Below are positions 40,131 through 47,367 of a stretch of DNA of 64,000 nt, one piece after another. The number at the start of each line of letters is the position of its first letter. Positions within the stretch are counted from its first letter, which is position 1. Where the stretch lies: contig DAIDAJ010000047.1 in the NCBI GenBank assembly GCA_027310665.1, forward strand, positions 1-64,000, written 5' to 3'. The DNA is from Sideroxydans sp. GTDB taxonomy: Bacteria; Pseudomonadota; Gammaproteobacteria; Burkholderiales; Gallionellaceae. Both the position numbers and the translations under genes were made by a program. The notes beneath the pieces are model-generated. The model ran no database searches, had not been told where the DNA came from, and was given only the letters and a program-made list of their open reading frames with translations.

Positions 40131-40675
40131 GCAAAAACCTCTGCGTCGAGGAGGCACTTGCCGGCCTGATCCTTGGCAGAAAGCAGCGGGGTAGCCCCGC
40201 CCAGCTGCCAGTCGATGGCCAAGTCGGCATCGTTCCAGACGATGCATCGCTCATGCTCGGGCGCCCAATAATCGGTCGTCTTGTACAGGAACTCGGCAGA
40301 ATCGCTCAGTACCACAAAGCCATGCGCGAATCCCTTCGGTATCCACAGCATCTTCTTGTTGTCGGCAGACAGGTTCACACCGACCCACTTTCCGAAGGTG
40401 GCTGAACTCTTGCGAACATCGACAGCGATATCCAGCACCTCACCTGCGATGACGCGCACCAGCTTGCCTTGTGGCTGACGTATCTGGTAATGCAGACCGC
40501 GCAAGACATTGCGGGCGGATTTGGAATGATTGTCCTGAACGAAGGCATCGGCGACGCCAGTCAATTCAGTGAACCGCCGTTGGTTGAAACTCTCGTAGAA
40601 GAATCCCCGGTCATCGCCGAATACTTTGGGTTCGATGATGAGCACATCGGGGATCGCGGTATGGACAACTTGCAT
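40127..40675 (-). CDS. rfbC: dTDP-4-dehydrorhamnose 3,5-epimerase
   Basis: A 182-residue cupin-fold epimerase (RmlC). It contains IIEPKVFGDDRGFFYESFN, FVQDNHSKSARNVLRGLHYQ (catalytic His in RGLHYQ) and WIPKGFAHGFVVLSD. It epimerises dTDP-4-keto-6-deoxyglucose at C3 and C5. It overlaps rfbA by 1 bp and rfbD by 4 bp, as expected for a coupled operon. Confidence 0.96.
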   Translation of the reverse strand: MQVVHTAIPDVLIIEPKVFGDDRGFFYESFNQRRFTELTGVADAFVQDNHSKSARNVLRGLHYQIRQPQGKLVRVIAGEVLDIAVDVRKSSATFGKWVGVNLSADNKKMLWIPKGFAHGFVVLSDSAEFLYKTTDYWAPEHERCIVWNDADLAIDWQLGGATPLLSAKDQAGKCLLDAEVFA

Positions 40676-41550
40676 CAGCGCCTCTCTTCGTTCAGCAGGC
40701 GTTGCAGATATTGCCCATAACCATTTTTGGACAGCGGAGCGATCAGCTTCTGCAATTGCGCAGCATCGATATAGCCCTTGCGATAGGCGATCTCTTCAGG
40801 ACAGGCTATCTTCAGGCCCTGGCGCTTTTCCAGCGTCTGGATGAACATGGAAGCTTCCAGCAGCGATTCGTGCGTGCCGGTATCCAGCCATGCGTAACCG
40901 CGTCCCATCACCTGGACGTCAAGCTTGCCGCGATCCAGGTAGATCTGGTTCACGGTGGTGATCTCAAGTTCGCCGCGCGCAGAAGGCTTGATGGACTTCG
41001 CGATCTGCACCACATCGTTATCGTAAAAATACAAACCGGTGACCGCATAGTTCGACTTCGGCTTGAGCGGCTTTTCCTCGATGCTCAGCGCACGGCCGGA
41101 TGCATCGAAATCGACGACGCCGTACCGTTCCGGGTCGAGCACGTGGTAGGCAAACACGGTGCCGCCGTCAGTCTTGTTCGCGGCCGGCGTCAACAAGGTG
41201 TCAAAGGCATGACCGTAGAAAATGTTGTCGCCCAACACCAGTGAGCAGGCATCCTTGCCGATGAAGGATTCACCGATGATGAAAGCCTGCGCAAGGCCAT
41301 CGGGAGACGGCTGAACCGCGTAAGAGATACTCATCCCCCATTGCGAGCCATCGCCCAGCAACTGCTCAAAGCGGGGAGTGTCCTGCGGCGTCGAGATGAC
41401 CAGCACATCGCGTATGCCTGAGAGCATCAGCGTCGTGAGCGGATGATAGATCATCGGCTTGTCATACACGGGGAGGAGTTGTTTGGAAATCGTTTGCGTT
41501 ACCGGATAAAGCCTTGTGCCGGAGCCGCCGGCGAGGATGATGCCTTTCAT
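40675..41550 (-). CDS. rfbA: Glucose-1-phosphate thymidylyltransferase
   Basis: A 291-residue nucleotidyltransferase (RmlA). It begins [18 protein letters not shown], the pyrophosphorylase loop, and contains [25 protein letters not shown] and [13 protein letters not shown]. It makes dTDP-glucose from glucose-1-phosphate and dTTP. I start at the ATG at 41550. A frame beginning 12 codons upstream ([12 protein letters not shown]) is simply translation of the heptad repeat. Confidence 0.96.
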
Positions 41551-41551
41551 C

Positions 41552-41586
41552 GAGTGCAGAGTGTTGAGTGCTGAGTGCTGAGTCAT
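41552..41586. repeat. Heptad-repeat arm, left side of the four-helix cassette
   Basis: Five tandem 7-bp units: GAGTGCA, GAGTGTT, GAGTGCT, GAGTGCT, GAGTCAT. The 19 bp at 41566-41584 are a perfect inverted copy of 41977-41995. The arm lies directly between the rfbA start codon and the stop codon of the four-helix gene. Confidence 0.85.
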
Positions 41587-41957
41587 TATGCTGTACCTTG
41601 TCTTTTTACGGATGCCCTGAGTCCCCCGACTAAACGGGCCACTTCTTCTGCTTGCTGCATTGATTCACCAAATTGCCGCTGGTCGATGTAACCGACATCG
41701 AGCGCGATATAAAGCTGGGCGCGCAACTCGGCGCAAGAAGCCTTGGCAATAACCAGAAAGTGATGGAATTCAGCTGCGCCACCGCGCTCAAATCCTTCCG
41801 CAATATTCGACATGACTGAAACGGCGGCACGTTGAATCTGGTCCTTCAATCCAAAATCTCTGGAAAATCCACCTTGTGAAGTGAGTTGATAGATCGACGC
41901 AGCAAGTGCGCGCGCCTTTTGCCAAGCGATCAACTCCTCAAATCGCGAGATTCCCAT
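41586..41957 (-). CDS. Four-helix-bundle protein (S23/IVP type)
   Basis: A 123-residue helical protein, [20 protein letters not shown]..., with the family motifs [21 protein letters not shown] and [19 protein letters not shown]. It belongs to the S23 ribosomal / 23S rRNA intervening-sequence protein family, also related to the Avd protein of diversity-generating retroelements. The function is unknown; members often bind nucleic acid. It interrupts the rfb operon between rfbB and rfbA and is bracketed by inverted heptad repeats. A good ribosome site (GGAAAGGAAG) precedes it. No reverse transcriptase is nearby. Confidence 0.88.
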
Positions 41958-41970
41958 CGCTTCCTTTCCA

Positions 41971-41998
41971 ACTCAGGACTCAGCACTCAGCACTCTGT
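41971..41998. repeat. Heptad-repeat arm, right side of the four-helix cassette
   Basis: Four tandem 7-bp units: ACTCAGG, ACTCAGC, ACTCAGC, ACTCTGT. The stretch 41977-41995 is the perfect inverted partner of 41566-41584. It overlaps the rfbB 3' end and encodes its last residues and stop codon. Confidence 0.85.
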
Positions 41999-43043
41999 AC
42001 TGTTTATCGATCCACTTCTGGTATTCGCCGCTGGTCACTCCGCTCACCCAATCGGTGTTATGCAGATACCATTCAACGGTTTTGCGCAGTCCGCTCTCGA
42101 AAGTCTCCCGGGGTTTCCAGCCCAGATCATGCGAGATCTTGGTGGCGTCGATCGCATAACGCTTGTCGTGACCGGGGCGGTCGGCAACATAGGTGATGAG
42201 TCTGTTGTGCGGCGCACCTTGCGGGCGCAGTTCGTCCAAAGTCTTGCAGATAGTTTGTACCACTTCCAGGTTGGTCTTTTCGTTCCAGCCGCCGATGTTG
42301 TAGGTCTCGCCTAATTTGCCCTTCTCGAGCACAAGACGCAAAGCCCGCGCGTGGTCGTCCACATACAGCCAGTCGCGGATATTGTCGCCCTTGCCGTAAA
42401 TGGGCAGCGGCTTCGCATTGACCGCGTTCAGGATCACAAGCGGGATCAGTTTTTCAGGAAAGTGGTAGGGGCCGTAGTTGTTGGAACAGTTGGTGGTCAC
42501 CACCGGAAAACCGTAAGTATGATGCCACGCACGCACCAGGTGATCGGAGGATGCCTTGCTGGCGGAATAAGGCGAGTTGGGCTCGTAGGCCGTTTCCTCG
42601 GTGAAGAAGCCGGTCTCGCCCAAGCTGCCATATACCTCGTCCGTCGAAATATGGTGGAAACGGAAGCCCGCTTTACGCTGCGCATCCAGACCGTTCCAGT
42701 AGTTGCGGGCGGACTCGAGCAGAATATAAGTGCCTACAATATTGGTCTGAATGAAATCCGCCGGACCGCTGATGGAACGGTCGACATGGGACTCGGCGGC
42801 CAAATGCATCACGGCATCCGGCTGGTGTTCGCCAAATACGCGTGCCATTTCGGCGGCGTCGCAAATATCCACCTGTTCGAAACGGTAACGGGGATTGTCC
42901 GACACCGTGGCCAGTGACTGCAGATTGCCCGCATAGGTCAGCTTGTCGACGTTGACAACGCTGGAATCGGTATCGTTAATGAACTGCCGAATGACGGCAG
43001 AGCCGATGAATCCGGCGCCGCCGGTAACGAGGATTTTTTTCAT
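41973..43043 (-). CDS. rfbB: dTDP-glucose 4,6-dehydratase
   Basis: A 356-residue SDR enzyme (RmlB). It has the NAD motif [28 protein letters not shown], catalytic Tyr-Lys in [13 protein letters not shown], and the active-site [13 protein letters not shown]. It converts dTDP-glucose to the 4-keto-6-deoxy intermediate. The last seven residues (RVLSAES) and the TGA stop are provided by the heptad repeat at 41971-41998, so the natural C-terminus was probably altered. The start at 43043 overlaps waaA by 4 bp. Confidence 0.96.
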
Positions 43044-45518: not shown

Positions 45519-45866
45519 ATGCTAGACGAAACCACACATTACGGTCTGCTCAAGACCCTGGAAGAGAATCCCGGACTTTCGCAAAGAGATTTGGCGAAAA
45601 GGCTGGGCGTCAGCCTTGGAAAAATCAATTACTGCCTCAACGCCTTGGTAGCGAAGGGCAGCGTCAAGATCAACAACTTCCGCAACAGCGACAACAAACT
45701 GGCCTACGCCTATCTGCTCACGCCGAGCGGCGTTGAACAAAAAGCGCGAATGACAGTGGAATTTCTGCAAGTCAAAGTTCAGGAATATGAACGCCTGCGC
45801 GCGGAAATAGAAGAACTGAAGCGTGAAGCTGAGCAAAAAGGTCTGCTGGAGAATACACATGAGTAA
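45519..45866 (+). CDS. MarR-type EPS-associated transcriptional regulator
   Basis: A 115-residue protein. A winged-helix segment (ETTHYGLLKTLEENPGLSQ then RDLAKRLGVSLGKINYCLNA) is followed by a C-terminal coiled coil (residues 85-115) rich in Glu and Lys. This matches the MarR family group linked to EPS or O-antigen loci in proteobacteria. I start at 45519, because a good promoter (45459-45487) lies upstream of it. The stop overlaps manC by 8 bp, so the regulator is coupled to the plus-strand polysaccharide operon. Confidence 0.87.
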   Translation: MLDETTHYGLLKTLEENPGLSQRDLAKRLGVSLGKINYCLNALVAKGSVKINNFRNSDNKLAYAYLLTPSGVEQKARMTVEFLQVKVQEYERLRAEIEELKREAEQKGLLENTHE

Positions 45867-47367
45867 TCAGGTATATGCCGTTATTCTGGCAGGCGGAAGC
45901 GGAAGCCGGTTGTGGCCGCTTTCCAGGCAACATCTACCCAAGCAATTTCTGGCACTGGACGGCGAGTTTTCATTGTTGAAAACCACGATCAATCGTCTGA
46001 TGCCGACGATAGGCGAAAAGAATGTATTGATCGTCACCCAGGAGGCGCTGGCCAAGGGCGAGGCATATCATGCCTTGCTACCCTATCAATCGCTTTTCGA
46101 GCCGATCGGCCGTAACACCGCGCCGGCCATCGCCATTGCCGCGGCGTATCTTGTGGCTGAAGGTAAGGATCCGGTCATGGTGGTGCTGCCTGCCGACCAC
46201 GTCATCAAAGACGAAGCGGGCTTCCGCAAGCATCTGGACACCGCCATCCAGGCAGCGCAAAGCGGCAAACTGGTGACTTTCGGCATCCAGCCGACCCGGC
46301 CAGACACCGGATTCGGTTATATCAAAACAACAGCACCGGGGACTGAGGAACGAGGACTGAGTGGAGAAGCGGGAATCGGCTTTACTCAGCACCCAGCACT
46401 CAGCACTCAGGACAGTGCTTCTCAGCACTCAGCACCCAGCACTCAGTCCTGTGTTTTGGACGTGGAACGGTTCACCGAAAAACCCGACCTGATTACTGCC
46501 CAGGCTTTCCTGAAAGAGGGCGGCTATTACTGGAACTCCGGCATGTTCGTCTGGCGCGCGTCGGTGATCCTTGCCGAGATACAACGGCACTTGCCCGCGG
46601 TCTATCAGATCGTGCAAGCCATCATTGCCGAAACCCGTGCGGGCACAGCTTTCCAGAAGTCCCTGGAAAAACATTTCGCCGCGATGCCGTCGATCTCGAT
46701 TGACTACGGTGTGCTGGAAAAATCGGACAATGTTTCCCTCATTCCCTGCGACATCGGCTGGAACGACGTAGGCAGCTGGCAGGCAGTACACGAGATTTCG
46801 AACAAGGACGAAAGCGGCAATGCGCTGCAAGGCAATGTCATCGCAGTAGATTGCAAAAACAGCCTGATCCGAGCCGAAAAGCGACTGGTGGCCGCCATCG
46901 GTGTGGAAGACCTGTGCGTGATCGAAACCGCAGACGCGGTACTGATCTCGAAAAACGACCAGACACAGCGAGTACGCGAAGTGGTGGATGCGTTGCAGGA
47001 AAAAGGCGCGACCGAGCATGTCTACCACACCAAAGTGAATCGTCCGTGGGGCAGCTATACCGTGCTGGAAGAAGATCCGGAAGGCTTCAAACTGAAACGA
47101 ATCGAAGTTGCGCCGGGCGCGCGACTGAGCCTGCAAAGCCATCGCCAGCGCTCCGAGCACTGGGTCGTTGTGTCGGGCACCGCCACCGTAACCAACGGCG
47201 AAGAAGTCATCACCGTTTACAAGAACCAAAGCACCTACATACCGATAGGAACGAAGCACCGCCTGGAAAATCTCGGCAAGGAACCGCTGCACATCGTAGA
47301 AATACAGGTCGGTGAATATCTGGGCGAAGACGATATTCAACGTTATGAAGATAACTACGGCAGGTAA
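45859..47367 (+). CDS. manC: Mannose-1-phosphate guanylyltransferase / mannose-6-phosphate isomerase with heptad-repeat insert
   Basis: A 502-residue bifunctional enzyme. The pyrophosphorylase motif is [34 protein letters not shown] follows, and the C-terminal cupin isomerase domain has [11 protein letters not shown] and [16 protein letters not shown]. It makes GDP-mannose for gmd. Between GYIKTTAP and VERFTEKP about 36 residues (roughly 160-197) are extra compared with the usual ManC, which is about 470 long. They come from the heptad-repeat element at 46340-46450. The frame stays open and catalytic motifs are intact. Confidence 0.93.
46340..46450. repeat. Heptad-repeat element in frame inside manC
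   Basis: Left arm: GGACTGA, GGAACGA, GGACTGA (46340-46360). Right arm: ACTCAGC, ACCCAGC, ACTCAGC, ACTCAGG (46384-46411) and ACTCAGC, ACCCAGC, ACTCAGT (46427-46447). AGGACTGAGTG (46353-46363) and CACTCAGTCCT (46440-46450) are a perfect 11-bp inverted pair. The same 7-bp unit flanks the four-helix gene at 41552-41998. Confidence 0.85.

Follow-up and report, generated by a model that had tools for sequence, protein, structure and literature searches.

A candidate mobile cassette of inverted heptanucleotide arms around an S23/IVP gene in Sideroxydans sp.

The S23 cassette between rfbB and rfbA

The DNA analysed here (the window) is the stretch of 64,000 nt from positions 1 to 64,000 of contig DAIDAJ010000047.1 of Sideroxydans sp. 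(GCA_027310665.1). Between its rfbB and rfbA genes lies a cassette of about 0.45 kb, in which one gene for an S23/IVP-type four-helix-bundle protein is enclosed by two complementary arrays of degenerate GAGTGCT heptads (Table 1). Heptad arms were found around most of the S23 genes that we sampled from many phyla, and arms and protein travel together. We regard it as rather likely that the window holds one copy of a class of mobile elements of about 0.45 kb, consisting of inverted heptad arms around an S23/IVP gene whose product binds its own heptads.

An earlier note on this DNA had described a 19-bp perfect inverted repeat of heptanucleotides with one S23/IVP-type gene as its only content. 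Both observations are real. The 19-nt segments at 41566-41584 and 41977-41995 match perfectly as inverted copies, the match extends to arms of 31 nt with 90% agreement (41553-41583 and 41971-42001), and Tandem Repeats Finder reported period 7 at 41552-41583 (4.6 copies) and at 41971-41995 (3.6 copies). The sole gene between the arms matched PF05635 with an E-value of 1.3e-36 (125.4 bits, cut-off 33.8) and TIGR02436 with 115.8 bits. No transposase was found between the arms, where the only gene matches PF05635, TIGR02436 and Avd-type models. Terminal inverted repeats, a criterion for miniature inverted-repeat transposable elements (MITEs) and insertion sequences, are present, and in the predicted fold the cassette RNA is closed by the arms. 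When the window was searched for GAGTGCTGAGTGCT with up to 2 mismatches, 10 matches were obtained against 0.47 expected, a number reached by 0 of 100 shuffles. Six of the 10 lie in the cassette and 4 in a third array (46384-46446) inside a manC-type gene; the earlier note was right about the arms and had not mentioned this array.

The name rfbA was given from the motif MKGIILAGG, and rfbB is presumably a dTDP-glucose dehydratase. The stop codon of rfbB (41973-41975) lies inside the arm that is 5' on the S23 strand, whereas the 3' arm stops 1 nt ahead of the ATG of rfbA (41550-41548). An in-frame extension of rfbA up to 41586 passes through the heptads.

Table 1. Coordinates of the cassette, its neighbours and the second heptad hairpin in the window
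Feature	Position	Strand	Remarks
rfbA, glucose-1-phosphate thymidylyltransferase (presumed)	40675..41550	minus	start just outside arm
3' arm of cassette	41552..41585		plus strand reads GAGTGCA GAGTGTT GAGTGCT GAGTGCT GAGTC; complement of 5' arm
S23/IVP four-helix-bundle gene	41586..41957	minus	123 aa; PF05635 / TIGR02436
5' arm of cassette	41971..41997		GAGTGCT GAGTGCT GAGTCCT GAGT on S23 sense, G-rich; also codes last residues and stop of rfbB
rfbB	41973..43043	minus	C-terminus encoded by heptad arm
manC-type gene (presumed) with in-frame hairpin	45859..47367	plus
S23-less hairpin, same heptad family	46340..46449		left arm 46340-46362, right arm 46384-46449 in two blocks; in frame in manC

Heptad arms around S23 genes in general

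The genome of the window has three S23 genes, each with inverted 7-nt arms of a different word: GAGTGCT at rfb, a GGATTTT-like word at what we take to be the thyA-folA junction and an AAGGGAG-like word at the presumed dnaK-dnaJ junction. A wider sample of 180 S23 loci was collected, 100 from whole genomes and 80 (set B) from a profile scan of genome contigs; set B is the best 80 of at least 560 confirmed candidates and so leans toward the query profile. Two loci without a gene hit (L092, L181; genomes, contigs and loci carry our own G, C and L labels) and 8 with fewer than 80 aa matched were dropped, which left 170 genes, and 6 more with less than 100 nt of flank, which left 164 genes with full flanks.

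The identity of the 60-nt flanks at lag 7 was 0.42-0.49 (167 upstream, 168 downstream), and at lags other than 7, 14 and 21 it was about 0.23-0.31. The best period was 7 in 133 of the 164 loci and 8 in 18, compared with period 7 in 49 of 634 shifted control windows from the same loci. Arm complementarity averaged 16.3 in the 164 loci versus 6.8 when partners were swapped (492) and 7.3 in the shifted windows (634), and exceeded the 99th control percentile in 120 loci; 102 showed both period 7 and complementary arms. After dereplication at 60% protein identity, period 7 was found in 86 of 108 loci and period 8 in 12. A later set of 29 loci from the family of one earlier genome (G282) gave period 7 in 26 and complementary arms in 23, all 23 with a G-rich 5' arm. 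The same polarity was seen in the main sample, where the 5' arm had an excess of G over C at 120 of 129 loci, with 5 reversed and 4 tied (related loci not thinned); the sequence outside the arms was balanced (23505 G, 23634 C). The earlier note had proposed looking for S23 genes with arrays on both sides and had named an absence of repeats around other S23 genes as evidence against it. Such arrays lie around most of the sampled S23 genes, in differing words, and the counts of 133/164 and 26/29 at period 7 speak for their presence.

When arms of copies at the same site in different genomes were compared, a copy's own arms matched each other better than crossed arms in 161 of the 208 pairs, which indicates that both arms of a copy tend to change jointly. 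One clear change by whole heptads was found in the plasmid copy L327, which equals L319 minus exactly 14 nt of the 5' arm. It could be argued that selection on the operon transcript maintains the arms as a stem in the RNA, for processing or in the manner of an intron, around an immobile resident gene. Arms that stay complementary while they diverge between species would fit such a stem, as would the predicted closing of the cassette RNA, insertions that run with the operon, and the excision of 23S inserts from RNA by RNase III (PMC4990558, excerpt). However, the mismatches between arms in 125 loci comprised 97 compatible with G-U and 96 A-C. Without a G-U excess, the likeness of the arms is not maintained by pairing on the transcript strand. 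Arm words also match between unrelated sites, and empty sites exist, which likewise speaks against this explanation, and we consider it improbable.

Arm words follow the S23 protein

Among pairs of loci with dissimilar flanks, the 5-mer similarity of the arms rose with the identity of the S23 proteins (Mantel test, 0 of 2000 permutations, with all 13,158 pairs as well as with only the 2,539 from set B). Arm words were shared by 49% of 57 pairs at 60-70% identity versus 0.4% of 3311 pairs at 30-35%. The smaller bins gave 25% of 8 pairs above 70% identity and, for set B alone, 33% of 9 pairs at 60-70%. This link between arm word and protein is the main reason for regarding S23 as the element's recognition protein, and S23 probably recognises its own heptads, judging from the sequence comparisons.

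Among the matches listed, the near kin of the window S23 outside the genus were L146, labelled Planctomycetota, L147 and L148, both Deltaproteobacteria, and L149, Chloroflexi. Their arms consist of GAGTGCT, GAGTGAT or GAGGACT. L146 lies between genes that we take to be moxR-like and DUF58-like, and L149 between two presumably carboxylase-like genes.

Filled and empty sites

The rfbB loci of the genus, 28 with that of the window, were inspected, and 26 of the junctions with rfbA were readable. Fourteen were compact, with 68-74 nt between the reading marks, 6 held an S23 cassette and 6 something else. At one of the S23 cassettes (G033) a stop codon lies within the S23 match. At L058 (G020) the junction is occupied by a different, GC-rich repeated sequence. 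The closest empty site is L051, whose rfbB is 96% identical to that of the window. Here rfbB overlaps the start of rfbA (ATGA), and the last codon in common is followed by 17 nt up to the ATG, at the place that the cassette takes in the window. The end of rfbB differs between the empty relatives and the window, and the AGGAG-type ribosome-binding site of rfbA, present in empty relatives such as L051, is lost in the window. The claim of the earlier note that the cassette interrupts an otherwise overlapping rfb operon is borne out by the 14 compact junctions and the L051 overlap; these junctions also contradict the possibility, named there as adverse, that all relatives carry the gene here without repeats. 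Of its suggested comparison of filled and empty junctions, the empty sites were found but no target duplication was seen between the window and L051.

A copying of the heptads from the target was considered, as the empty rfb site of several relatives has GGAGTGC or GGAGTGT, which resemble GAGTGCT. The idea was dropped because kin of the window S23 bear the same heptads at unrelated sites.

The window S23 matched 25 plasmid records. In the closest plasmid pair, L319 and L327 are filled and L324 and L325 empty, with compared flanks 97.5-99.6% identical, and the 423-bp element of L319 has a 5-bp duplication, GTAAT, at its flanks. From the aligned pairs the insertion of the whole unit appears clear, with no uniform duplication length across them. 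At the plasmid site of L319, Nostoc sp. C052 (L326) has a truncated, decayed S23 copy. The link to cyanobacterial heptanucleotide repeats that the earlier note had drawn holds insofar as S23 genes with such arms occur on cyanobacterial plasmids. A phage vector was not indicated, as the window S23 had no match in 50,697 phage records at E 1e-5.

The orientation of the insertions was determined with a codon-usage caller. Both neighbours were callable in 60 of 208 loci, and both were co-directional with S23 in 59 of these; one-sided calls were co-directional in 74 of 78 cases upstream and 103 of 109 downstream. These stricter calls replaced earlier, crude ones (113/140 upstream, 112/138 downstream). 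An annotated exception is L323, where S23 lies antisense between two ribonucleotide reductase genes. The bias may reflect selection for being transcribed.

S23 genes were also seen inside CRISPR operons, in L336 between cas10/cmr2 and a cmr3-family gene and in L337 between cas6 and cas4. The repeat arms of L336 have period 8, and the flanks of L337 period 7. A 23S_rRNA_IVP gene between cmr2 and cmr3 has been listed as a CRISPR-Cas-associated function (PMC3936711, excerpt). L336 holds the same family, which we read here as an insertion rather than as a CRISPR association: since L336 has repeat arms and PCC 7002 (L340) has no S23 gene at its cas10/cmr2-cmr3 junction, insertion is the simpler reading.

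Heptad hairpins without S23

The second hairpin of the window is translated in frame, so that its repeats lie in a variable linker of what we take to be a mannose-1-phosphate guanylyltransferase of the manC type. It was absent in 9 aligned relatives (10 of 13 manC loci were parsed; L279, L280 and L282 were not), and the manC locus of G028 (C1 2920780-2920929) also has heptad hits. Further S23-less hairpins of GAGTGCT heptads lie on contigs C21, C12 and C17, and a single arm in a purL-like gene on C45. At least 10 motif hits were counted in 6 of 6 genomes with a window-type S23 at rfb versus 3 of the 28 others (Fisher 6e-5), 20 of which had none. The counts include overlapping hits and the cassette arms; the reversed-pattern control gave 6 hits in all 34 genomes together. 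Eleven array groups occupied the same site in more than one genome.

Upstream of a moxR-like gene, 28 of 29 loci could be read: 5 had a hairpin, 11 a short junction (gap 7-52) and 12 other sequence. Depending on the genome, this junction (L289-L317) contains GAGTGCT hairpins, 9-nt hairpins or genes, and looks like an insertion hot spot. The gene in L303, L309 and L310 is presumably GIY-YIG-like, and another small gene is found in L314, L316 and L317. The 9-nt-unit hairpins form a family without S23 that is dispersed in the genus, with inverted pairs at several places. Its members include L294, L308 and L311 (CACGAAAGA type), L306 and L307 (CACAGAG type), and copies in G007 (C2, e.g. 33145, 136287, 142402, 248643 and 332271) and G017 (C9 1840). 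They may represent a comparable class with another protein.

The S23 protein and reverse transcriptase

The AlphaFold2 model of the window S23 has four helices, with a predicted local distance difference test score of 95.6. The nearest solved folds are 2gsc (TM-score 0.86), 2rld (about 0.79) and 4dwl (0.74), with five chains listed for each; 4dwl is Avd of the diversity-generating retroelements (DGRs). By its title, the 2gsc paper reportedly concerns five four-helix bundles. An alignment of 13 sequences showed invariant residues including R43, S47, N51, E54, R58, S74 and E77, which could serve in nucleic-acid binding or stabilise the bundle. The window S23 is thus like Avd in fold and in a weak profile kinship; at 23.1 bits it does not pass the curated Avd model NF033474 (cut-off 80). 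Unlike the Avd-type loci L094 and L095, which have a reverse transcriptase beside them, none was found in the genome of the window (G000).

A telomere- or retroelement-like process has to be weighed here, in which a reverse transcriptase, working with S23, would extend 3' ends at a break by G-rich heptads, with the C-rich RNA of the 3' arm as template, and so generate head-to-head arrays. The arms have the polarity (120 of 129) expected if G-rich repeats were attached to the two 3' ends, the unit is 7, sometimes 8, with a sequence that varies by element, small target losses occur at several sites, and the fold is near that of Avd, a part of the DGR reverse transcriptase complex. However, PF00078 had no match in G000 (92.6% complete), nor in G004 and G030, all three having S23 and arrays. 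Over 100 relatives, reverse transcriptase was not associated with S23 (15 of 32 S23-positive genomes versus 25 of 68 others, p 0.39), and the S23-like genes L094 and L095, which do adjoin a reverse transcriptase, are without heptad arms. We therefore regard this process as very improbable.

S23 inserts in 23S rRNA

In a 23S motif scan, only L144 and L374 among the loci tested lay in 23S rRNA. They come from different families and have S23 in the helix-45 region, just downstream of what we take to be the conserved stretch around position 1060. Their heptad arms use two different words, and the S23 frame of L374 has two stops. L209 was discarded as a 23S copy, its single motif match with 6 substitutions being taken as chance.

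Intervening sequences (IVSs) of 23S rRNA that encode S23 are said to have been studied by Ralph and McClelland in 1993. The window cassette resembles them in its S23 reading frame (125.4 bits to PF05635), its complementary closing ends and its size, about 0.45 kb compared with about 430 nt. It differs in its position between rfbB and rfbA and not in helix 9, 25 or 45 of 23S rRNA. In Coxiella burnetii, the IVS has GACAGAT heptamers ahead of the S23 open reading frame, two or three depending on the strain, and a 28-bp terminal stem, and RNase III cuts at the first heptamer repeat and excises the RNA (PMC4990558, excerpt). The elements described here go beyond that account in their inverted arrays on both sides, their words that follow the S23 subfamily and their dispersed arm-only hairpins. 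The excerpt of PMC4990558 does not generalise heptad arms beyond the 23S IVS, and no report tying heptad arrays to S23 genes generally was found in the literature searched, outside which most subscription journals fall. Our best reading of these sequences is that the S23-type rRNA IVSs would be a special case of the same class of mobile elements.

Passenger or mobility protein

Movement of the unit is indicated by the filled and empty plasmid pairs, the coupling of arms and protein at unrelated sites and the dispersed S23-less hairpins; the same findings support the earlier note's proposal of a small mobile cassette. Alternatively, S23 could be a passive passenger, if MITE-like heptad hairpins are moved by an unrelated enzyme from the host or an element and some of them happen to have S23 in the loop. 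The lack of a known catalytic domain in S23, the frequent S23-less hairpins, the one clean 5-bp duplication, which resembles the product of a cut-and-insert enzyme, and the arrays kept without a matching S23 in G013, G015 and G045 would all be explained in this way. But most sampled S23 genes are armed and their arm words track the S23 sequence, a fidelity unexpected of a passenger, and several arrays of G023 and G436 match the local S23. A passenger role seems to us unlikely.

A number of results weigh against a mobile element recognised by its own S23. To our knowledge, S23 contains no catalytic domain. When 400 kb of each of five genomes were scanned for arrays without a preset word, the arms of the resident S23 were matched by 3 of 6 arrays in G023 (its S23 cassette left out) and by 4 of 7 in G436, leaving 3 unmatched in each; G007 gave 1 of 2. 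In G045, against expectation, 0 of 5 arrays matched, and four were GAGTGCT-like. The single array of G017, a genome in which no S23 was matched, fitted none, and G013, G015 and G008 (73% complete) had many arrays and no S23 match. Neither period 7 nor arm complementarity was found in 13 of the 164 loci, two of them the Avd-type L094 and L095, which fall below the PF05635 cut-off, and of 9 scored plasmid loci 8 had period 7 but 5 passed the arm score. The more diverged plasmid pairs were non-uniform at their junctions (a duplication of +3 bp in L321, but replacements of -11 bp in L322, -16 bp in L323 and -16 bp in L338), the L336 pair was unreadable on its left side, and a possible TTCTA duplication in L333/L334 is ambiguous, as the heptad itself could mimic it. 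The flank arrays of L337 run in the same direction on both sides and are not inverted. The clade of the window S23 and its kin has moderate tree support (0.695-0.79), and some same-site S23 families may be vertical. For Coxiella, the authors of the IVS study suggest that the S23 protein is dispensable and goes unproduced (PMC4990558, excerpt).

The arrays of G045 (C1 110015, 110541, 296672 and 311747) are of the GAGTGCT/GAGTGAT type, whereas the arms of its one S23 match are of the CTTGAAC type. They are perhaps the remains of a lost S23 element.

MITEs and the REP/REPIN-RAYT systems likewise comprise many copies of small hairpins built from inverted repeats, together with a relative that encodes a protein. 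The S23 arms differ from them as 7-nt tandem units of many sequences with non-uniform junctions, and S23 is a four-helix bundle and not a transposase. Heptanucleotide repeats are known from cyanobacteria as short tandemly repeated repetitive sequences. The TAACTGA heptads of Beggiatoaceae and cyanobacteria are tandem and mostly intergenic (PMC4679880, excerpt), and neither 'S23' nor 'four helix' occurs as a term in that paper. These arrays are direct and of one word, whereas those described here come as inverted pairs, in many words, and are linked to S23 genes.

A possible mechanism and its meaning

In the element as we picture it, the G-rich strand runs 5' to 3' from each flank toward the centre, where the gene for a pentamer-type four-helix bundle lies. 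The S23 oligomer would bind arrays of its own heptad, with each protomer perhaps contacting one unit, and together with a host nuclease or replication enzyme would move the full cassette as well as arm-only hairpins. The RNA hairpin of the cassette can probably be excised by RNase III, as with the 23S insert (PMC4990558, excerpt). The host would tolerate the element for this reason and because it is transcribed along with the host genes and inserts into operon junctions or helices of rRNA. A further-reaching version, which we put forward only tentatively, is that no mobility protein other than S23/IVP is encoded by these phylum-spanning elements, which have no transposase or reverse transcriptase of their own. 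A five-fold ring would read its own heptads, move cassettes and hairpins via host break repair or replication and copy between the arms, and the S23-type rRNA IVSs would be copies that landed in rRNA.

For the S23/IVP proteins and the S23-type 23S IVSs, this offers a testable answer, one element class with a recognisable signature of G-polar, inverted arms of period 7 tied to the S23 subfamily. The neighbourhood links of PF05635 to CRISPR, dnaK-dnaJ, guaB-guaA, thyA-folA and rfb may result from insertion rather than from a shared function, and the class may account for part of the dispersed heptad repeats of bacteria. It also poses the question by what means so small a bundle, with no active site known in it, could move DNA. 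The findings point to mobile DNA of a class so far overlooked, which would include the long-known inserts of ribosomal RNA genes, among which the heptamers of the Coxiella IVS have already been published (PMC4990558, excerpt).
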